Shown: positions 22,779 to 41,860 of the stretch, piece after piece
Layout of the letters: the number at the start of each line of letters is the position of its first letter
Numbering within the stretch: the stretch's first letter is position 1
Source: Isosphaeraceae bacterium
GTDB lineage: Bacteria; Planctomycetota; Planctomycetia; Isosphaerales; Isosphaeraceae
Direction of reading: 5' to 3'
DNA: 54,299 nt
Assembly (NCBI GenBank): GCA_025356475.1
Contig: JANXSX010000159.1
Span: 1 to 54,299, forward strand
Program-made: the position numbers and the translations under genes
The notes under the pieces: generated by a model
The model's input: only the letters and a program-made list of their open reading frames with translations
Told to the model about the DNA's origin: nothing
The model's database searches: none

Positions 22779-24257
22779 TCAGGCAATTATCTCATGAATG
22801 ACATGTCCATGCACATCGGTCAGACGTCGGTCGATGCCATTGTGTCGAACCGTGAGCTGGGTGTGATCGATTCCTAGGAGATGAAGAATGGTGGCGTGGA
22901 TATCATAAACCTGGGTTGGGTGATCGCGGTCGAGGGGTTTGTAGCCGAACTCGTCGCTCAGACCGTGGGTGATCCCACCTTTGATGCCGCCGCCAGCGAG
23001 CCAGTTGGTAAAGACATAAGGGTTATGGTCGCGCCCTTTCCCTGCTTGGCTCGATGGCATCCGACCGAATTCCGTCGTCCATAGGATGATCGTATCGTCG
23101 AGCATCCCTCGCTGTTTGAGATCCTTGATCAATCCCGAGGCCCCGCGAGCCATTCCGCGAGCCAAGGGCCCGTGGTCGCGTTCGACATCCTCGTGCGAGT
23201 CCCAGTTCCGTCTCGGAAAGCCGTTGTCATTACCCGACCAGATCTGAACAAACCGTACGCCCCGTTCTAGCAAACGCCTGGCGACGAGGCACTTGCGTCC
23301 GAACGCATCCGTTTCTTCCAGGGTGTTAATCTCTTTATCGAACGAGGATCGACCGTGATCGAGTCCATACATCTTCAGAACCGATTGAGGTTCGCGGGAA
23401 AGGTCCAAGGCCTCCGGCGCGGCGAGTTGCATCCTGGCGGCGAGTTCATAGCTCTTGATCCGAGCCTCAAGCCGGGAATCGCCTGCTCGATCGCTGGCAT
23501 GATCGCGATTGAGCCTTCGAAGCAGCTCAAGTCCTGCGGAGTCACTTGACGAAGTGACGTAGTCGTTTCTAGCTGGGGTCAGGTCGGCGACCGGGTTGTC
23601 AGTACCCGGAAAGATCACCGTTCCCTGGTGTTGCGAGGGAAGGAACGCGGTGTCCCAGTTCTTGGGACCGTTGGAGGCATACCCGCGATGGTCGGGTAAG
23701 ACGACGAACGTCGGCAGGTTCTCATTGGCTGAGCCCAGGCCATAACTTATCCAGCAGCCTGCCCCTGGAAAGCCAGGTGTGAGAAAGCCGGTCGCTTGCA
23801 GGAGAGTTGCCGAACTATGAACACCGGTCTTTCCAACCATGTTGTGGATGAACGCGATATCATCGACACATTCGCCCAAGTCCGCGACCGCGTCGGAGAG
23901 TGGCTTGCCACTCTGCCCATACGGCTTAAAGTTCCAGATCGGCTTCAACCAAGGGCCGAGACCATCCTGAAAGGTCTCGACAGTCTCACCGAAGCTGGAA
24001 GGCTGACCATGTCGTTTGATCAGTTCGGGCTTATAGTCGAACAGGTCGATATGGCTTGCCGCACCCGCCATGAAGAGTTGAACAACCCGTTTCGCTTTGG
24101 CGGGATGATGTATCCCGGCCCGGCTTTGTTCGGAGGCCAGCATTGTGGCGAGTGCAACGCCACCCAGTCCCCCTCCCGCTTGCCAGAGGAATTCCCTGCG
24201 TGAAGTGGGGCGACTTGAGTTGCCGGATCGATGAAAAGGCGAGTTATTCCAGGCCAT
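22779..24257 (-). CDS. Tat-exported DUF1501 protein
   Basis: This protein (492 residues from ATG 24257) belongs to DUF1501, related to sulfatases/alkaline phosphatases. A twin-arginine signal SRREFLWQAGGG (R20 R21) is followed by a hydrophobic part. The body has VVQLFMAGAASHIDLFDYKP, GECVDDIAFIHNMVG, WTTEFGRMP and a His/Asp-rich end, as in the family. AAGGGG six bases before this ATG decides the start; an ATG at 24290 would overlap the upstream gene. The DUF1549/DUF1553 gene stops ten bases before it. This pair is a hallmark planctomycete operon. Biochemical role is not established; a part in polymer breakdown is often suggested. Confidence 0.95.
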   Translation of the reverse strand: MAWNNSPFHRSGNSSRPTSRREFLWQAGGGLGGVALATMLASEQSRAGIHHPAKAKRVVQLFMAGAASHIDLFDYKPELIKRHGQPSSFGETVETFQDGLGPWLKPIWNFKPYGQSGKPLSDAVADLGECVDDIAFIHNMVGKTGVHSSATLLQATGFLTPGFPGAGCWISYGLGSANENLPTFVVLPDHRGYASNGPKNWDTAFLPSQHQGTVIFPGTDNPVADLTPARNDYVTSSSDSAGLELLRRLNRDHASDRAGDSRLEARIKSYELAARMQLAAPEALDLSREPQSVLKMYGLDHGRSSFDKEINTLEETDAFGRKCLVARRLLERGVRFVQIWSGNDNGFPRRNWDSHEDVERDHGPLARGMARGASGLIKDLKQRGMLDDTIILWTTEFGRMPSSQAGKGRDHNPYVFTNWLAGGGIKGGITHGLSDEFGYKPLDRDHPTQVYDIHATILHLLGIDHTQLTVRHNGIDRRLTDVHGHVIHEIIA

Positions 24258-24267
24258 GGTACGCCCC

Positions 24268-27231
24268 TTAATCGACGAAGGCAAATTCATTCAAGTTGAA
24301 GATCACACGACACGTATTCGTGAGCCCGAATTGACGTGCGTAGGCGACTAATCCCACTTGCTCCGCAGTTGTGGGCGGTCGGGAAATCGCCAGCTCGAAC
24401 CCGAGCCTCACCTGGGCGGCGAGGTCGCCACTCGTCTTGCCGAGCCGTTCTGCAAGTCGCTGCGACATCTCGATCATCAGCCGACTATTGAGCAGCGTGA
24501 GAGCCTGAAGGGCTGTCAAACTTTCATTCCGCTTGTCAACACTCATCGACGGATCTGCGCAATCCAGAGTCGTCAAGAAGGGTTGAGGCTGAGACCTGAC
24601 GATCATCCGATAGATCGACCGCCGTTGAGATTTGGGATCGTTAGGGTCGAATAGCTTGTATTCGTAGTGGGGTGAATGCTCGGGTCGCTCGACCACAAAG
24701 TCCTCAAACCCGGGGCCCCCCATCGTCAAGTCAAGTTTGCCTGCGACAGCGAGGACCGAGTCGCGAAGGGCTTCTGCTTCAAGCTTGCGCCGATTCATTC
24801 TCCAGAGGTACTGGTTTCCTGAATCGATCAGGGCGTTGGCTGGATTAGTCGTCGAGACTTGCCGATAAGTTGAGCTAAGCACAATCCACTTGTGAAGCTG
24901 TTTGATCGATTGGCCACCATCCCGAAACTCGACGGCAAGCCAATCGAGCAACTCTGGGTCGGAGGGTAAGCCACCCATCCGACCGAAGTCGTTCGGTGTA
25001 TCCACGATCCCTCGGCCAAAGTGGTAGTGCCAAATTCGATTGACGATCGACCGCCAGGTCAACGGGTTTCGATCATCGCTGAGCCACACCGCTAACGCCA
25101 GTCTGCGCGCATCTTCAGGAGCATCGTCAGCGAGGGTAAACCGTGAACGAAGCCCGTCTACCAGGGGAATCGCTCCAGGCCCTACCACCTGTTTGGGAGT
25201 TCGAACGTCGCCCCGGTTCAAGAGGTGGATCACTCTCGGTTTGCCACCGTCAGGTCCGGTCCCGCGAAAAGCTCCGCCACCACTGTGGATCGTCCCGGCG
25301 AAGACTTTTGATTGGGCTGGAAGCTCACTAGTCGATTCATCAAGATGCTTGAGTTCGCTGGTCGCTTGATCGAAACGGTGGCGGGCCTGTTCATCAAGCG
25401 ATTCACGAATGATCGTTTGGCGATCAGCCTTCAGCTTGGCAAGCGACTCCCCGACTGCGGCGGGATAGTCGCCATCGACCAGGTTCTCCATACGCCAGCG
25501 AGGAGGAGACTCGATTGTGTCGAGAGCTGTCACCTTCGCCAATTTCGCCACGTTGTCACCGGAGGCGTCGAGGACTTCCAACTCCGCTAGGGCGAAGTTG
25601 TAATCGTTCAACCGAGGAGCGAGCTTGGTGGCTGAGACTCGTACATACCGTGCGTCCTGGCCTGAGATGGTAATTGTCAGGGCTTTGAGTTTCGGGTTGG
25701 CGGCATCCGTTCGGGTCTTGTCGAGAATGGTGCGAACACTCCGGCGGAACTCCGGATCATCAGCCGTCTCAACCTTGAATCGGGTTGGAAAGCCAAAGCC
25801 TTCGCCGATTCCGTTAAACCCATCGTCACAGGCGTGAAGAATCACTTTGTCGATCGGTATCGATCGACCAAGATCGACCTGGACCCACTTCGTCGTCTCG
25901 GCGTCGTCGGCGAGGGCGCTGTGGTAGCCGAACGCTGGTGAGCGAGTCGTCGGAGTAGCAACCTTCGACTTGATTTCGAGGTTGATCGCTGTCAGCCGAT
26001 CACCGTTCGCGAGTTGGGTCAACTCGGCGAGTTCGTGCTGAACCATGGATCGCTGGTGGGCAAGGTGGTCTCGCGAATGAGCCACACGTGGATCTAAGTC
26101 GTAAGACTTATCGGAGCGATCCAGAGCTGCAAAAACAGCCTGGAGGCTGTAGTAATCTTCCTGCGTCACCGGATCGAACTTGTGATCATGACAGCGTGCG
26201 CATTGGACCGTCGTGCTCATGAATGTATTCAGCGTGTTGGCGACCATGTCGTCTCGGTCGAGTGACCGGGCGATCTGGCCGTCGATCTTGGTTTCGGCGA
26301 CTTCCGCATGCCCGATGAAATCCCAGGGACCTGCGGCAATGAATCCAAGTCCTTCAATGCCGTCACGTGTATTTGCAAAGAGTGCGTCGCCGGCGACCTG
26401 TTCCTGAACGAAGCGCCGGTAGGGCTTATCTTCATTCAACGAACGAACCACGTAGTCGCGATACGGCCAAGCATTGGGCCTGGGCTTATCCTTGTCATAC
26501 CCATGCGTGTCGGCATAGCGAACCACGTCAAGCCAATGACGCCCCCAGCGCTCGCCGTAGCGTGGGCTCGCTAGCAACTGATCGACCAACGCTTCATAAG
26601 CATTCACATTTTGGTCATCAACGAAGGCCTTCACCTCTTCAGGCGACGGGGGTAGCCCGGTGAGGTCATAGGTAACTCGCCTGATCATGACGCGTCGATC
26701 GGCTTCCACAGAAGGCGTCAGACCCTTCGACCTGAGTTTGGAGAGAATGAATGCGTCGATCGGAGTTCTCACCCTCGCCTTATCTTCTCGAGTAAGCACG
26801 GGGATTGTGGGCTTTTCCAATTTGCGAAGCGACCACCAGATCTCGCGTTTGGGAGTACCCGTCGGAGTGTCGCGAGGGTCTGGAGCTCCGAGTTCGACCC
26901 AGCGTCGGAAGTCAGCGACCAAACTCTCGGGAAGCTTTCCCTGCGGTGGCATCGCCTTGACTTCGCCGCTCCGCGCGATTGCTTCGAGGAGAGGACTCTC
27001 CTCAACGTCGCCCGGAACGATTGCAGGGCCCGAGTGACCCCCAGTTCGAACCCCAGCACGGCTATCGAGGCTCAAGCCCCCCTTGGGTTTAGCCTGATCC
27101 GACGCATGACACCGGAGGCAGTGTTCAGCCAACGCGGGGGCAATCTTGGCGTGAAAGAGATTGAGCCCCTCATCCGCTGTTGAGGGTGCTACCAAGACAA
27201 TGCAGGGAATTAGCCAATGAGGGCGAAGCAT
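24268..27231 (-). CDS. Planctomycete cytochrome (PSCyt1), DUF1549, discoidin and DUF1553 protein
   Basis: This 987-residue exported protein has a signal peptide (LIPCIVLVAPSTA). A c-type heme motif CLRCH lies at residues 38-42 inside the PSCyt1 domain, with MPPQGKL as possible distal ligand region. DUF1549 (PSCyt2) covers about 150-360, with PIDAFILSKLRSKGL and CARCHDHKFDP, a second CxxCH. An F5/8-type C (discoidin-like) domain lies at about 420-540 (PIDKVILHACDDGFNG, DARYVRVSATKL). DUF1553 (PSD1) covers the C-terminal 400 residues (NRIWHYHFGRGIVDTPNDFG). It is followed directly by the DUF1501 gene. Heme binding is inferred from motifs. The middle discoidin domain may bind sugar. Confidence 0.95.
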   Translation of the reverse strand: MLRPHWLIPCIVLVAPSTADEGLNLFHAKIAPALAEHCLRCHASDQAKPKGGLSLDSRAGVRTGGHSGPAIVPGDVEESPLLEAIARSGEVKAMPPQGKLPESLVADFRRWVELGAPDPRDTPTGTPKREIWWSLRKLEKPTIPVLTREDKARVRTPIDAFILSKLRSKGLTPSVEADRRVMIRRVTYDLTGLPPSPEEVKAFVDDQNVNAYEALVDQLLASPRYGERWGRHWLDVVRYADTHGYDKDKPRPNAWPYRDYVVRSLNEDKPYRRFVQEQVAGDALFANTRDGIEGLGFIAAGPWDFIGHAEVAETKIDGQIARSLDRDDMVANTLNTFMSTTVQCARCHDHKFDPVTQEDYYSLQAVFAALDRSDKSYDLDPRVAHSRDHLAHQRSMVQHELAELTQLANGDRLTAINLEIKSKVATPTTRSPAFGYHSALADDAETTKWVQVDLGRSIPIDKVILHACDDGFNGIGEGFGFPTRFKVETADDPEFRRSVRTILDKTRTDAANPKLKALTITISGQDARYVRVSATKLAPRLNDYNFALAELEVLDASGDNVAKLAKVTALDTIESPPRWRMENLVDGDYPAAVGESLAKLKADRQTIIRESLDEQARHRFDQATSELKHLDESTSELPAQSKVFAGTIHSGGGAFRGTGPDGGKPRVIHLLNRGDVRTPKQVVGPGAIPLVDGLRSRFTLADDAPEDARRLALAVWLSDDRNPLTWRSIVNRIWHYHFGRGIVDTPNDFGRMGGLPSDPELLDWLAVEFRDGGQSIKQLHKWIVLSSTYRQVSTTNPANALIDSGNQYLWRMNRRKLEAEALRDSVLAVAGKLDLTMGGPGFEDFVVERPEHSPHYEYKLFDPNDPKSQRRSIYRMIVRSQPQPFLTTLDCADPSMSVDKRNESLTALQALTLLNSRLMIEMSQRLAERLGKTSGDLAAQVRLGFELAISRPPTTAEQVGLVAYARQFGLTNTCRVIFNLNEFAFVD

Positions 27232-28912: not shown

Positions 28913-30373
28913 GTGATCATCACACCATCGACCAATTCTAGGAAGGATCTCTCGACACTCTTCAGCATTGGGGCCATCGGCCTTCTCTCTGACGCCGAAT
29001 TGTTGGCTCGATTCACAGCGGGAGCAGGTGACGCCGGCTCCGAGGCGGCCTTTGAGGCGATCGTTGCCAGGCATGGCGCGATGGTTCTTGGGGTCTGTCG
29101 ACGGATCTTGCGTGATACCCATGCCGCGAATGATGCCTTCCAAGCCACCTTCTTGGTCTTGGCTCGCAAGGCTTCCGCAATCCGCGTCGAGGATTCCCTG
29201 GGGCGTTGGTTGTACGAAGTCACGATCCGGGTTGCCCGACGAGCCAGGTCGACTGCGATCGTGGAGCGTGCTCGGGTCCAACCACTGAGCAGACTCGACC
29301 CTGTCGCTCACGATAGGTCGTTCCAACGCCACGAGAACGACGATCTTCGGTTCGTGATCGATGAGGAGATTGCCCGCTTGCCCGACCGATATCGGTCGGC
29401 GGTCCTACTCTGCTACCTGGAAGGTCTCACCCAGGAGCAGGCTTCGATCCGGCTAGGCTGTCCGATCGGTACGGTCCAGAGCCGCCTGCATCGAGCTCGC
29501 GAGCGTTTGCGTTGTCGACTCACCAGACGCGGCCTGGCTCCGGCAATCTGGACTTCGGCGATGTTGGCAACAGCAACCTCCCGAGCGGAAGTGCCCTCGC
29601 CGCTGGTGGCTTCGACCAACGCAATGGCTGTCGCAATACTGCGCGGGGTGCTCGCCGGGATCGTCCCCGCGCCGGTATCCGCCTTAGTCGCATATACACT
29701 TCGAGGGATGATCATGACAAAGGGATTGTGGGCAGGGATAATACTCGTCGCGGTCGGCCTCTCCGCAACGGGAGCGGGAGTCCTGGCCGGTGGTAGTGGT
29801 AGTGGTAGTGGTGGTGGTGAGGAGCCCAAGAAGCCTCCCCTCAAGTCAACCTTGGCAGCGGAGCCTGAGTCCAAGTTGTCGATTGCTGAACAATTCGCCG
29901 TGATCCGGGCCGAATTCGACGCCAAAGAAGAGGCGATGTGGGCGGCTATGAAGAAGGTCGAAGACCAATCCCAGCAGAATACACTGTATGGAGAAATGGC
30001 TCCCGACAAGGTGGCATATTGTCGCCGGATGATCGACCTGGCCTTCTTACTTCCCACAGATCCTGGGTCACGTGATGCTCTGATCTGGGTTGTAAACAAC
30101 CCGGGGATGTCCGACGTGGGTCCCTATGGCGATGAGTTCGCACGGGCAGCATCAATGTTGGTTCGGCATCACGGCGACGACCCCGAGGCCATTCGTGTCG
30201 GGCTTGTGATGGACAACGATGCGACGTTCCATCGCGATGCCTTGCTCCAGGGTTTCTATGCCTCAGCGAAGAGCGTCGAGTCGAAGGGGTTGGCCAGGTT
30301 GGCTCTTGCCATGTATCTGAAGAGCAAACCCATGACGTCTTCTGGCTCGGGCAAGGACTTGGCGCGAAAATAG
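28913..30373 (+). CDS. ECF sigma factor fused to a membrane anchor and outer domain
   Basis: This 486-residue protein is a planctomycete ECF sigma factor of the type with a C-terminal membrane part (ECF01-Gob-like). Region 2 is at about 50-95 (VLGVCRRILRDTHAANDAFQATFL). Region 4 has LPDRYRSAVLLCYLEGLTQEQA and the HTH CPIGTVQSRLHRARERL. One hydrophobic helix (GLWAGIILVAVGLSATGAGV) near residue 275 is followed by a Gly/Ser run encoded by GGTAGT repeats. The last 180 residues would lie outside the cytoplasm. GTG 28913 has GGAGG ten bases upstream. The frame stops at TAG 30371-30373, but coding-like sequence continues in the same frame (next entry). The fused design suggests direct control by an envelope signal. 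Confidence 0.9.
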   Translation: MIITPSTNSRKDLSTLFSIGAIGLLSDAELLARFTAGAGDAGSEAAFEAIVARHGAMVLGVCRRILRDTHAANDAFQATFLVLARKASAIRVEDSLGRWLYEVTIRVARRARSTAIVERARVQPLSRLDPVAHDRSFQRHENDDLRFVIDEEIARLPDRYRSAVLLCYLEGLTQEQASIRLGCPIGTVQSRLHRARERLRCRLTRRGLAPAIWTSAMLATATSRAEVPSPLVASTNAMAVAILRGVLAGIVPAPVSALVAYTLRGMIMTKGLWAGIILVAVGLSATGAGVLAGGSGSGSGGGEEPKKPPLKSTLAAEPESKLSIAEQFAVIRAEFDAKEEAMWAAMKKVEDQSQQNTLYGEMAPDKVAYCRRMIDLAFLLPTDPGSRDALIWVVNNPGMSDVGPYGDEFARAASMLVRHHGDDPEAIRVGLVMDNDATFHRDALLQGFYASAKSVESKGLARLALAMYLKSKPMTSSGSGKDLARK

Positions 30374-30505
30374 AACATCTACCATGGTGTGATCAGCGAC
30401 GATGGCAAAGCGAACCTCCGAGGCCATCTTGTGATGGGCGCGAGCCTCGACAAGCTGGTGGATGAGCTGCTCGCAGAACTTGAGGTGCCCGATAAGGCCA
30501 AGTGA
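30374..30505 (+). pseudogene. In-frame continuation of the ECF sigma gene past its TAG
   Basis: After the TAG the same frame runs for 43 codons to TGA at 30503-30505: NIYHGVISDDGKANL, then GHLVMGASLDKLVDELLAEL. Codons and composition look like a real protein end with a C-terminal amphipathic helix. No start codon or ribosome binding site serves this part alone. The simplest reading is that the outer domain once ended here and the TAG is recent, or is a sequence error. Confidence 0.5.
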
Positions 30506-34237: not shown

Positions 34238-34755
34238 TGACATCCACCAAAAGAGATCTCCAGGCTCGATCGACACGAACGCGTTGTTCCGGAGTTGACG
34301 AGTGTCTCGACCACGCGTCTTCCCCTGGGCGGCTTACCTGTTTGGGATGGCCACGACCACGCCCATCCTCGCGTAATTCGCCCTCAATTTGGCCGATCCA
34401 TCCTGGGGTCTGCGGTTCCCACTGGGGTGGATCGATCCGACGTTTGTTCGCTTTAGGGGTAACGAATACTCTTGATGTGCTCTACATCCAGTCCAGAGAG
34501 AAGTGAGCGACTCTGAGGCACCAGAAGTGGGGTGGAACACAAAATAAAGGGTCCCGGAAGGTTCTTGTTCACTAGCTGATCTAAATAGGATCTATAATTA
34601 TGGTGGCTGGCGAGATGACTGTCCGATTCGATTTCCCCACCGGAAGCAGGGCGATGAAGCTTGCGGTCATGGTCGATTTTCTCCGAGAGTTACGTCTACA
34701 CTAAGGGGCTCGCCCACTCGGGCGTGTGTTCCTCTGTCCGTCGAGGTCTCCGGCA
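34238..34755. other. 518-base gap with possible gene remnant and promoter
   Basis: The gap before the kinase gene holds a stretch at 34302-34547 in which one plus-strand frame reads like protein but is broken by TAA at 34374 and TGA at 34473. Readable parts are RVFPWAAYLFGMATTTPILA and then LNLADPSWGLRFPLGWIDPT. A perfect TATAAT lies further on. No RNA gene was recognised. Confidence 0.35.
34568..34598 (+). promoter_or_regulatory. Candidate promoter before the kinase gene
   Basis: TATAAT at 34593-34598 is an exact -10 consensus. TTCACT at 34568-34573 is a modest -35 candidate with a 19-base spacer. It lies about 155 bases before the kinase start. Assignment rests on consensus only. Confidence 0.3.
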
Positions 34756-37371
34756 ATGCAGATCCAATGTCCGCACTGCGGGCACACAGTTGCGGTCAAC
34801 CCATCGAAGCCGGGTCGGTTCGGTGCAAAATGCCTTCAATGTGCCGGGGAGTACATCGTCACACTTGAGCTGAAGGTCGAAGCACAGCCCCAAACAAGGG
34901 ATGAGACGAGCGCCCCGACAACGGAGGCTGCCACCGGTGTCTGGACCGGAGGAGCGACAGAAGCCGACGGCACGATCGCTCAATCCGGTCCAGTCGATGC
35001 CGACGCCACAACCCTCGGCGGTTCAAGTGGAGTGAGTGATGGGGGGACAATCCCATCCACGCTTGGGGGCTACCAGATCGTCAAGGAACTTGGTCACGGC
35101 GGGATGGGGTCGGTCTACCTGGCGAAGCAGATCTCGCTTGGCCGCAACGTCGCCCTCAAGACCATGCGGCCCGAGTGGTCGCGTGACGCCGAATTCGTAG
35201 CCAGGTTCACCCGCGAAGCCTATGCCGCCGCACAACTCGTCCACCACAACGTCGTCCAGATCTACGACTTCGGTGAGGACAAAGGGACGAACTTCTTCAG
35301 TATGGAGTTCGTCGATGGGTCGTCCCTCGCCGCGCTCGTGGCAGAACGGAAGCCGATCGACCCCGAAGTGGCGGTGGGCTACGTGCTTCAAGCGGCTCGT
35401 GGGTTGAAGGTGGCACACGACCAGTGCATGATCCATCGTGACATCAAGCCTGACAACTTGCTGCTGAACAAGCAGGGAATCGTCAAGGTCGCGAATCTGG
35501 GACTCGTCAAGACACCAAACTCACCTGAGCCGAACTCCGGGATTGCCCTGGCGGGAGGATCGGCGGGAACAACCCTCGTTGGTCAGACAATGGGGACCCC
35601 CGCTTATATGGCTCCCGAACAGGCAAAGGATGCCGCTTCGGTTGACGCCAGAGCCGACATTTACTCGCTTGGATGCACTCTCTACGTTCTGGTGACCGGT
35701 CGGCCTCCTTTTAGTGGTCGAACTGCGATCGAAGTGATCACGAAGCACGCGAATCAAGCGATTCCGCCTCCCGAAACAATCAGCAAACGCGTTCCCAAAG
35801 GGCTCTCGGAGATCATCCTCCGGATGGTCGCTAAGAAGCCTGAAGATCGCTTCAACAACATGAGCGAGGTCATTACAGCTCTCGAGCACTTCCTGGGAGT
35901 GTCGAGTTCAGGGCCATTCTCACCAAAAGAACTCCATGTCGAGGCACTTGAACAGGGTGTTGCCGACTACGAGTCGGCTCCAACGGCCAGGCTTTCGAAA
36001 CAAACCACCCTCGGACTTTCAGTCAGCCTTGGCCTCATTATTGCGGGTGCCCTGGTGTTCAGGCGGCCGATGCTCGTGGGAGCACTCACCTGGTTGGGGT
36101 TCGCAACGTGCCTTTCTCGGTTTGTGATCGAAGGAATGCGCGGGCGTTCGATTTTGTTCACAAAAGTTCGCGAGTGGCTTCTGGGTGCAAAACCGAGTGA
36201 GTGGGCGACTTGGTGCGTGGGAGGGGTCCTTTCTGCAGTCTTACTATGGTCGTTCGGTCTGGTCGGTTTGACGATTTCCTTTGGCTTGGCGGGTATGTTG
36301 CTCGCGGCTGGACTCTACTTGGGTTTTGACCGACGAGCGGAACACGAACGGGCCGAGCCAATCCATAGAATCGAGACCTTGCTGAAAAGTTTGCGCATTC
36401 AAGGTGTGGATGAGAACGCAATCCAGCAATTTGTCCGCAAGTACGCCGGAGAGAGGTGGAAATTGGTTTATGAGGAACTCTTTGGTTTCGCATCACTGAA
36501 CGCCGCGCGTGCCAGGATGAGCCCAACCGGTAAGCCATCGGTCGGTCGATTCGACTTGCGTTCGCCGATGCTCGGTTGGATTGAAGGTCAACTTCGTGAC
36601 CGACGCGAGAAAGCGGACCTGAGACTTTTACAGCGAATTGAGGAGAGGAGCCTTGAAGCCCAAGGCGTCAATCTTGTCGTTGCGCGGCGAAAATCACGAC
36701 GAGTTGCCGAGGCTATGGTCGCGACGGCCGCCGAGGCTCGCCAGACGGCATTGACTCAGAGGGGGGGCCTCCGAACTCAGAAATCGCTCTATCAGTCTAT
36801 GAATGAAGCTGCCGAACAGCCCGAACGCGTATTGGTCGGACGTCCCGACCGGGAGGGCTCTGCCGGCTTGGGCTGGTTGATTCAAGCGATGTTGAACATG
36901 ATCCTAGGCTCACGTATCCGCTTTCTTGCGGGGTTGGCTCTACTCGCGGCATGTGCGATGTGGATGGATCAGAATGGGCTAGCTTCGAGTCAGCAAGTCC
37001 TTGAGATCGTCAAGTCGGCGCGGGAGACACAGGATGTTGCGGTGCTCGAAGATTTGAAGAAGATCAAGATCGATTTTGATCCAAGTCAGCCCACTCGACC
37101 TCTGAAGCTCGCGATGATTCCGGAGCCGGTCCTCGGGCTGTTCAACAGTTATGCATCGGGTGCGGCCGGACTCATGCTGATCGCCTCTGCGTTCTTTCGA
37201 GGTTGGAAGATGAGCCTGTTCGCATTCCCAGGCGCGGTGTTCGCGATCGCAGGACCACACTTCGGTCTGCCGATTCCTAAAATTGGAACGAGTGACGTGA
37301 ATCAATTTTACATCACGATCGGAGCGGTTATTTCAGGCCTAGGTTTTTTTTTGGGCCGGACTCGGTTGTGA
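34756..37371 (+). CDS. Membrane Ser/Thr kinase with zinc ribbon and NLG in place of DFG
   Basis: This 871-residue protein starts at ATG 34756. Residues 1-35 are a zinc ribbon (CPHCGHTV and AKCLQCAG). A Hanks-type kinase domain spans about 106-380: Gly loop LGHGGMGSVYLAK, Lys K135 in VALKTM, HRDIKPDN at 227-234, MGTPAYMAPEQA, and DIYSLGCTLYVLVTGRPPF. The Mg-binding DFG Asp is replaced: the site reads VANLGLVK, with N247-L248-G249 (codon AAT at 35494). The C-terminal half has two membrane clusters (417-540 and about 720-870) separated by a soluble helical part. Loss of the DFG Asp suggests weak or no phosphotransfer. ATP binding may remain. Confidence 0.93.
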   Translation: MQIQCPHCGHTVAVNPSKPGRFGAKCLQCAGEYIVTLELKVEAQPQTRDETSAPTTEAATGVWTGGATEADGTIAQSGPVDADATTLGGSSGVSDGGTIPSTLGGYQIVKELGHGGMGSVYLAKQISLGRNVALKTMRPEWSRDAEFVARFTREAYAAAQLVHHNVVQIYDFGEDKGTNFFSMEFVDGSSLAALVAERKPIDPEVAVGYVLQAARGLKVAHDQCMIHRDIKPDNLLLNKQGIVKVANLGLVKTPNSPEPNSGIALAGGSAGTTLVGQTMGTPAYMAPEQAKDAASVDARADIYSLGCTLYVLVTGRPPFSGRTAIEVITKHANQAIPPPETISKRVPKGLSEIILRMVAKKPEDRFNNMSEVITALEHFLGVSSSGPFSPKELHVEALEQGVADYESAPTARLSKQTTLGLSVSLGLIIAGALVFRRPMLVGALTWLGFATCLSRFVIEGMRGRSILFTKVREWLLGAKPSEWATWCVGGVLSAVLLWSFGLVGLTISFGLAGMLLAAGLYLGFDRRAEHERAEPIHRIETLLKSLRIQGVDENAIQQFVRKYAGERWKLVYEELFGFASLNAARARMSPTGKPSVGRFDLRSPMLGWIEGQLRDRREKADLRLLQRIEERSLEAQGVNLVVARRKSRRVAEAMVATAAEARQTALTQRGGLRTQKSLYQSMNEAAEQPERVLVGRPDREGSAGLGWLIQAMLNMILGSRIRFLAGLALLAACAMWMDQNGLASSQQVLEIVKSARETQDVAVLEDLKKIKIDFDPSQPTRPLKLAMIPEPVLGLFNSYASGAAGLMLIASAFFRGWKMSLFAFPGAVFAIAGPHFGLPIPKIGTSDVNQFYITIGAVISGLGFFLGRTRL

Positions 37372-37529: not shown

Positions 37530-38060
37530 ATGACGAATACCAAAGAAAATCTCACGGTTGTGCTTGGCGACATAACGACTTTGTCGGTTGATGCGATTGT
37601 CACCCCGGCTGATCCCACGTTTCGAGTGGGCCAAGGGATTGATGCCGCAGTGCGTCGTGCTGCAGGAGCTGGACTGACCCAGGAGTGTGAAGCGTTGGGG
37701 GTATGCCCGCGTGGTCAAGCCCGACTAACCCAGGGGCATCGACTCCCTTGCCGCTTTGTGATTCACGCGGTTGGACCAGTCTATGTTGATGGCCTTTCAG
37801 GCGAGTCGGAAGTTCTTCACTCGGCAATCGTAGAGTCGCTGAAACTCGCTGCTAAGTTCGGGGTCCATTCGGTCGCGATTCCTCCATTCGGTAGCGTCTT
37901 TCGTGGATTTCCCAAAGAGGAAGCCGCCATCGTCACACTCGCCGCTGTTCGCGAGTGGATGAGCAAAAATGAGAGACCATCATCGGTGATCTTCTGCTGT
38001 CTTTCTGAGGATTCAGCTCAGGTCTTCCGCTCGATACTCGGCTCGACCGACGATTATTGA
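37530..38060 (+). CDS. Macro-domain protein with altered active-site loop
   Basis: This 176-residue protein is a single macro domain. It begins TVVLGDITTLSVDAIVTPAD and continues RVGQGIDAAVRRAAG, TQECEALGVCPRGQARLTQG, and FVIHAVGPVYVDG. These match the MacroD type, which binds ADP-ribose and removes it from proteins or O-acetyl-ADP-ribose. The usual NAAN is T25-P26-A27-D28, and the GGGG loop is VGQG. The catalytic Asn is therefore missing, while D38 of GIDAA is kept. It may bind ADP-ribose without cleaving it. GGAGGAGAAG lies just before ATG 37530. It follows the kinase gene by 158 bases in the same direction. Confidence 0.9.
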   Translation: MTNTKENLTVVLGDITTLSVDAIVTPADPTFRVGQGIDAAVRRAAGAGLTQECEALGVCPRGQARLTQGHRLPCRFVIHAVGPVYVDGLSGESEVLHSAIVESLKLAAKFGVHSVAIPPFGSVFRGFPKEEAAIVTLAAVREWMSKNERPSSVIFCCLSEDSAQVFRSILGSTDDY

Positions 38061-40835: not shown

Positions 40836-41792
40836 TTATTTGATCAACTTGGCCAACGTCTCTTCTAGGGCTGGACCACGCAGCTCAAGTCGAATGATCT
40901 TGCCCTCAGGATCGATTAAAAAGGTCGCTGGGATGCTGCTGATGCCATAAAGTTCGACCAGATCGCCCCCACTCGACATGTTGTGGACCTGCTTCCAGGG
41001 GACTTTCCGGGCCTTCACGAAGTCGACGACAGCCTGCCGGTTCTCGTCGAGGCTCACGGCGACGATCTCGAGTCCCTTGGAGTGGTACTTGGTGTATGCA
41101 GATTGCTGGTTGGGGAGTTCGGCAATGCAAGGCGCGCACCAGGTCGCCCAGAAGTCCAACAACACATACTTGCCTTTGAAGTCCTCTAGCCGAATGGAAG
41201 CTCCATTCACATCCTTGACCGCCAGGCGTGGAGCGGGCTTGTCGACCTTATCCAGTTTTGCAAGGTCCTCATCAACCTTCTGCTTTAGGTTGGGGCTTTC
41301 GGCGTATTGTTTGAGAAGAGTCTGGTAGACCTGTTTGGCGATCGGGTACTCGCCGGCTGCGATGGCCGCGTGGGCGACGGAGTCGGCAAACTGGCCGGCG
41401 AACTCTTCTTGATCTGGACCCGAAAGGCTCGACATCAAGGTCTTGTAGACTGCGAACGCTTCAGGAAACTTGCCATCGCGTGCTCTGGCCATGACTGCGA
41501 TGATCTGTGCTAGCGGCCTCACAGCCCCTTCGGGACGATCCGCAAGGTAGTTCTTGGCGAGTCGCTCATGGTCAAGGAACCAGTCGTGCTCGATCACCTT
41601 ATCGAACAAGGCCATGTAGGCCTGGTCGATGTCGGTTGCTCGGGGATTCTTGATCACATAGTCGGCGAGTTCTTCGACCAACACCTTGTCATGTTTTAGC
41701 AGGATCGCAACGACCCCTGTGGGGGTTTTCTCGTCGGCCCCGAGCAGGACCGGTGCCAGGAGAATCAGGCTTGTCATCAATGCCACACGCAT
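40836..41792 (-). CDS. Exported TlpA-like thioredoxin-fold protein
   Basis: This 318-residue protein starts at ATG 41792 with GGAG six bases upstream. It has a signal peptide (MTSLILLAPVLLGA), a helical N-terminal part of about 150 residues that resembles TPR-like repeats, and a C-terminal thioredoxin domain: PRLAVKDVNGASIRLEDFKGKY, LLDFWATWCAPCIAELP (redox Cys pair WCAPC) and GISSIPATFLIDPEGKI with the cis-Pro. It belongs to the AhpC-TSA/Redoxin, TlpA/ResA group, which keeps periplasmic thiols reduced or aids heme attachment to c-type cytochromes. The CxxCH proteins in this window could be clients; that is inference. Confidence 0.92.
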   Translation of the reverse strand: MRVALMTSLILLAPVLLGADEKTPTGVVAILLKHDKVLVEELADYVIKNPRATDIDQAYMALFDKVIEHDWFLDHERLAKNYLADRPEGAVRPLAQIIAVMARARDGKFPEAFAVYKTLMSSLSGPDQEEFAGQFADSVAHAAIAAGEYPIAKQVYQTLLKQYAESPNLKQKVDEDLAKLDKVDKPAPRLAVKDVNGASIRLEDFKGKYVLLDFWATWCAPCIAELPNQQSAYTKYHSKGLEIVAVSLDENRQAVVDFVKARKVPWKQVHNMSSGGDLVELYGISSIPATFLIDPEGKIIRLELRGPALEETLAKLIK

Positions 41793-41860
41793 CTCTTGCT
41801 CCGTATTCACCTGGGCGTTGCTCTACGATCGACCGTGTTATGAGGTGTCAGAACCCAAGC

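Follow-up and report, generated by a model that had tools for sequence, protein, structure and literature searches.

Probable in-frame loss of most of a C-terminal thioredoxin domain, with an additional nonsense codon, in an ECF sigma factor gene of an Isosphaeraceae bacterium

The ECF sigma factor gene examined here stops at an in-frame TAG behind which the frame continues, open and coding-like, and this raises the question of what the sequence behind the stop represents and whether it is still translated. The gene lies in the window, that is, the whole stretch of 54,299 nt that was analysed, which is one contig of a 232-contig draft genome of 5.9 Mb. Its reading frame starts with a GTG at 28913 and comprises 486 codons up to the TAG at 30371-30373, after which 43 further codons are open in the same frame before a TGA at 30503-30505. 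The initial annotation had described both the premature stop and the continuation, and had explained them by a recent nonsense change, a sequence error or stop readthrough in a membrane-anchored sigma factor. On the evidence given below, the early stop seems to be a case of ordinary gene erosion, i.e. the loss of a domain by an in-frame deletion combined with a nonsense codon. The features of the locus are collected in Table 1.

A fusion gene and its relatives

The gene encodes an ECF sigma factor, with regions 2 and 4 and without regions 1 and 3. That is, its product was matched by the Pfam models Sigma70_r2 (E 1.9e-7) and Sigma70_r4_2 (E 2.7e-17) and by the NCBIfam model TIGR02937 (76.2 bits, against a cut-off of 42.9), while none of the Pfam models of region 1 or region 3 matched at E up to 1. 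Residues 274-292 form a hydrophobic stretch, predicted from this hydrophobicity to be a probable membrane span, and a helical domain starts at about residue 315. Pfam regions 2 and 4 together with the hydrophobic stretch thus support the view that the sigma factor is membrane-anchored. Neither a terminator nor a promoter was found in the segment 30300-30700.

A pattern scan of genome contigs found no close relatives, and the analysis therefore rests on relatives at the family level, where 45 genomes were searched and 21 of them (the window's own included) gave matches. Domain content was read for 30 of the 33 matches in a first list and for 30 from a second, much longer list, using ECF, thioredoxin and helical profiles that were built from these same relatives, the helical profile including the window sequence; some loci stop before the gene end (L004), and for L028 and L031 the match to the ECF part is incomplete. 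The loci read contain 43 distinct ORFs with the helical domain, counting the window's, and a thioredoxin-domain match was present in the same frame in 39 of the 42 others; in 10 of these 39 the match covers the first ~40 residues only, and the frame then reaches a TGA at the active site. Twelve ORFs combine the ECF part with the helical domain. The window gene, which holds both in a single frame, is the one among them from whose frame the C-terminal thioredoxin domain is absent, and the 11 other ECF-fused relatives examined all run on past the position of the TAG into such a domain. Because the thioredoxin domain is missing here and was seen in each of the 11 other ECF-fused ORFs examined, the window gene is a truncated descendant of an ECF-membrane-helical-thioredoxin fusion. 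The initial annotation had left room for homologs that end at the same place and have no counterpart of the tail; instead, the relatives run on and the tail matches them, as described below.

The C-terminus of L003, L004, L005, L006 and L007 was matched by the Pfam models Redoxin (PF08534) and AhpC-TSA (PF00578), and the best NCBIfam match of the relatives' domain was ResA (PRK03147), with NCBIfam scores under the cut-offs. In these matches, and in an active-site motif that often reads WCGPC, the domain resembles those of ResA, TlpA and DsbE; unlike these proteins, the window retains the last 30 residues only and has no active site. In the window's own genome, a search with the window sequence (E up to 1) turned up the helical domain nowhere else, and the helical profile gave two weak matches (E 0.005 and 0.06). 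Two helical-thioredoxin genes, L007 and L023, lie near each other on contig G008:C10.

The three helical-domain ORFs without an in-frame thioredoxin match are L017, L070 and L030. L017 (G014:C270) is decayed: it carries an in-frame TAG, the start of its helical domain lies in one frame and the WCGPC part in another, and the frame of the helical start gives a weak match to the thioredoxin C-terminus further along. In L070 (G180:C202) an in-frame TAG interrupts the helical domain and the thioredoxin domain is intact beyond it, which could reflect a nonsense mutation or an error in the sequence. The ECF match L035 in the window's own genome is not put forward as a pseudogene here: it was listed with two internal stops, but in L120 it reads as an ORF of 313 codons.

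The window gene shares 55% identity with L003 of genome G020 over 485 aligned positions, and the neighbourhoods of the two genes were compared by tblastn. Counterparts of the DUF1501 gene (22779-24290; 61% identity) and of the PSCyt/PSD1 gene (24268-27231; 47% identity) lie within 10 kb of L003, and the divergent arrangement of this pair is common to the window and G020. PSCyt/PSD1 has 73 matches in G020, the copy beside L003 being the best by far (E 1.8e-274, the next one 1.2e-134). Since both neighbours are conserved, the window gene and L003 would descend from a common ancestor at the same chromosomal place, and on this neighbourhood they are very probably orthologs. The stretches taken around L118, L119 and L121 contain no conserved neighbours, the matches there being those of the redoxin gene to thioredoxin domains and, in L119, two weak matches of the window gene 34726-37371. 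In G020 and in G016 (L117), counterparts of another window gene (37530-38060, plus strand) adjoin the ECF gene, each at 44% identity; the window copy is 7 kb off, on the other side of the ECF gene, a local rearrangement.

Table 1. Features of the ECF sigma factor locus (window coordinates)
Feature	Position	Strand	Basis
ECF sigma factor ORF	28913-30370	+	Sigma70_r2, Sigma70_r4_2; 55% identity to L003; very probable ortholog of L003 by neighbours
Helical domain (upstream of the thioredoxin domain in relatives)	29855-30370	+	Sequence comparison with relatives
In-frame TAG, current stop	30371-30373	+	No stop at this place in L003 and other relatives
Putative linker remnant downstream of the helical domain, NIYHGVISDDGK	30374-30409	+	GVISDDGK resembles GIIGDDGK of L003 and L004
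Probable deletion joint, in the DDGKA codons	30398-30412	+	Inferred; linker motif resembles thioredoxin-domain motif
Putative thioredoxin-domain remnant, final 30 residues	30413-30502	+	BLAST and profile matches to relatives
TGA, probably the gene's original stop	30503-30505	+	Position relative to the C-termini of relatives

Origin of the sequence behind the stop

The length of the tail is not in itself remarkable. Of the 36 window ORFs that do not overlap and reach 150 aa, 10 (this gene among them) stay open for at least 43 codons past the stop, in some cases simply because the next gene is in the same frame; we therefore rejected tail length as an oddity. Its composition is a different matter, and here the coding-like character given to it in the initial annotation was confirmed. 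Codon usage in the tail scores 0.50 bits per codon, a value not exceeded by 97.6% of 340 window coding segments and reached by 1 of 156 stop-free off-frame segments, which is not chance-like; one reverse-strand frame of the tail is also high (0.37 bits per codon). The helical end ascribed to the tail was likewise borne out, and the tail is former coding sequence.

The two halves of the tail resemble two different places in the relatives. The alignment with L003 (56% identity, L003 residues 73-572) crosses the TAG and extends as far as 30412, and NIYHGVISDDGKA aligns with a linker of L003 that ends in GIIGDDGKP. With a profile of the relatives built without the window sequence, the tail matched positions 613-642 of 645 at 11.0 bits, whereas the best of 20,000 shuffles reached 8.6; among real stop-free segments of the window outside the gene, 11 of 5743 scored as high, and all of these lie in the minus-strand redoxin gene at 40836-41810, a further gene of the window with a redoxin-type domain. 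When the tail was compared by BLAST with a set of 17 relatives, it hit 11 of them at the C-terminus (E 3.6e-4 to 0.16 for a set of this size) and gave no match in L008, L009, L011 and L023; L004 ends at a contig edge upstream of its C-terminus. In L003, the closest complete relative, BLAST found the linker (8 residues, E 0.31) and not the C-terminus, but the tail and the L003 C-terminus do align when C-terminal peptides are compared. In that comparison, made with hand-picked peptides of 13 of the 17 relatives (L004, L011, L012 and L013 left out), the part of the tail behind the joint, a short match of 30 residues, shares a mean of 36% identity with the relatives, which share 32-47% among themselves. 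The tail alone matched no Pfam or NCBIfam model. Judging from these alignments, the tail is made up of ~12 codons of the linker with the thioredoxin domain's final 30 residues joined on.

In the relatives, the two places matched by the tail are 219 codons apart in L003, L004, L005, L006 and L007 (five of the nine measured, the closest included), 217 in L009 and L023, 230 in L025 and 188 in L026. Because the halves of the tail match places that are 219 codons apart in relatives, we infer an in-frame deletion of ~657 bases beside the nonsense codon, with the TAG ~12 codons upstream of the joint. Relative to the intact relatives, the frame of the window gene is thus disrupted twice, by a nonsense codon and by an internal deletion. 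At the joint both places read D-x-x-G or D-G-K, with codons that are partly alike in phase, and it is plausible that the deletion occurred between these short similar stretches, the in-phase similarity presumably having helped it. For the TAG itself, both of the initial suggestions, nonsense change and sequence error, are possible, but the in-frame deletion of ~219 codons had been overlooked.

We therefore consider it highly probable that an ancestral fusion lost ~219 codons in-frame and acquired the nonsense TAG in addition, leaving a 486-residue product without thioredoxin domain. The ancestor, as reconstructed from relatives at ~40-55% identity, would have begun with an ECF sigma factor and continued through a membrane span and a helical domain into a ResA/TlpA-like thioredoxin domain, ~750 residues in all (the 529 of the present open frame and the ~219 lost). 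The deletion would have taken what remained of the linker region together with almost the whole thioredoxin domain, whose last 30 residues were left fused to the linker, and the separate TAG at 30371 would now terminate translation of a protein that has kept its membrane span and helical domain. The loss was presumably recent.

Competing explanations and the fate of the truncated product

Some alternatives dispute the deletion or the stop itself. The tail's second half could come from a helix shortly past the linker instead of the thioredoxin-domain end, which would imply a smaller deletion, and BLAST did place the joined protein, up to residue 522, on a near-helix region in L026. The relatives' profile, when freely placed, nevertheless puts the tail at 613-642 of 645, and the position of the TGA coincides with the ends of the relatives' proteins, making this origin highly improbable. 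Sequencing or assembly errors might have produced the TAG, the deletion or both in a gene that is really intact; a head and tail free of decay and a draft in 232 contigs would be in keeping with this. Against it, two separate errors within ~40 bases would be required, and for assemblers a collapse of ~657 bases over so short a similarity would be unusual. Moreover, L003 residues 573-641, which represent the deleted part, are matched on no other contig, and we think an artefact unlikely. The same residues gave no match in the window's own genome at E up to 10. The thioredoxin domain itself matches several other genes there (the best, L038, with 44% identity, in a separate ORF of 415 codons), but residues 573-641 match none of these thioredoxin-like genes, and a relocation of the deleted middle was rejected. 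Readthrough or recoding of the TAG, one of the initial proposals, would yield a protein of ~530 residues from a frame that is indeed open and coding-like behind the stop. It would, however, restore no domain, since what it appends is a piece of linker and 30 terminal residues. The Rfam tRNA model, which an aberrant tRNA could escape, found 46 tRNA genes, not one of them with a CUA anticodon, and suppressor tRNA readthrough was rejected on this count; a homolog of release factor 1 is present (E 6.5e-126; 420.8 bits, slightly below the curated 423.25), and TAG ends 6 of the 36 window ORFs, this gene included. The apparent selenocysteine use in the family involves a TGA at the active site, whereas the window stop is a TAG in the linker. 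Readthrough is very unlikely, to the point of carrying almost no weight.

With deletion plus nonsense codon as the preferred reading, what is left to weigh is the fate of the product. In the sigma region, 4 of the 59 columns invariant in eight other members are altered in the window gene, against 2 to 10 when other members are tested likewise, and in the helical domain 0 of 16 are altered (0 to 11 in others). There is thus no visible decay before or after the joint, which means either that the two events happened recently or that selection still acts on the head. Since the sigma and helical parts are free of decay, the cell may still produce a functional sigma factor, truncated to 486 residues. 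The early stop, the internal loss and the residual coding signal resemble pseudogene formation, unlike which the head shows no decay and could remain functional; the window protein is either a regulator minus its sensor or one on its way out. That the TAG has settled, with the truncated sigma factor a working regulator and the tail former coding sequence that has yet to erode, is compatible with the preferred explanation and differs from it solely in the fate of the product. We regard this as a serious possibility, if somewhat short of probable. The conservation of the head speaks for it but fits a very recent loss equally well, and the domain has been kept in 11 of 11 other ECF-fused relatives. 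In its favour, redox chemistry has been lost elsewhere too, since the thioredoxin domains of L011, L013 and L015 (3 of the 10 ECF-fused relatives read) are devoid of active-site cysteines.

Intact fusions, possible redox sensing and probable selenoproteins

The truncated gene itself is a known kind of thing and of low novelty; the better lead is given by the intact sigma-membrane-thioredoxin fusions, and the natural truncation could serve to test the role of their thioredoxin domain. ECF factors with C-terminal extensions have been described: the extension of ECF41, ECF42 and ECF238 is held to control activity (PMC8103513), and ECF56 is a further group of this type (PMC7730460). The present family shares with ECF41, ECF42, ECF56 and ECF238 an extension behind sigma regions 2 and 4. 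It differs from them in the probable membrane span ahead of the extension and, in the relatives, in the thioredoxin domain at its end, the part that is gone in the window. No planctomycete fusion of an ECF factor with a thioredoxin or redoxin domain was found in the literature at the level of titles and abstract openings, a level at which some papers on ECF groups were not covered.

In the intact relatives, the sigma domain would presumably face the cytoplasm, with the helical and thioredoxin domains on the far side of the membrane; depending on redox state, this outer part might then retain the sigma factor or let it go. The idea derives from the domain order and from what is said of other ECF factors with C-terminal extensions (PMC8103513). 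Not every member has to use the domain as an enzyme, given that L011, L013 and L015 lack the active-site cysteines, and for such domains the sequences suggest a role in sensing or binding and not in catalysis. It is conceivable, if doubtful, that each intact relative unites redox sensor and sigma factor in one protein and that the window holds a working sensor-less allele, perhaps always on. If this were true, the intact/truncated pair would reveal what the outer thioredoxin domain does.

Selenocysteine seems to be one recoding used by the helical-thioredoxin family. A SelB homolog scored above the cut-off in the window's genome, NCBIfam includes models of selenocysteine-containing ResA-like proteins, and planctomycete selenoproteins are already in print (PMC4807772). 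Among 13 early-ending loci chosen for reading, 11 have a TGA at the first active-site position and intact sequence beyond it (L016, L018, L019, L020, L068, L069, L070, L071, L072, L080 and L081), with no sigma part in frame, and these 11 relatives are probable selenoproteins. Their predicted motifs read UGPC or UGAC, except in L068 and L071, where both active-site positions are TGA (UGFU, UGGU).
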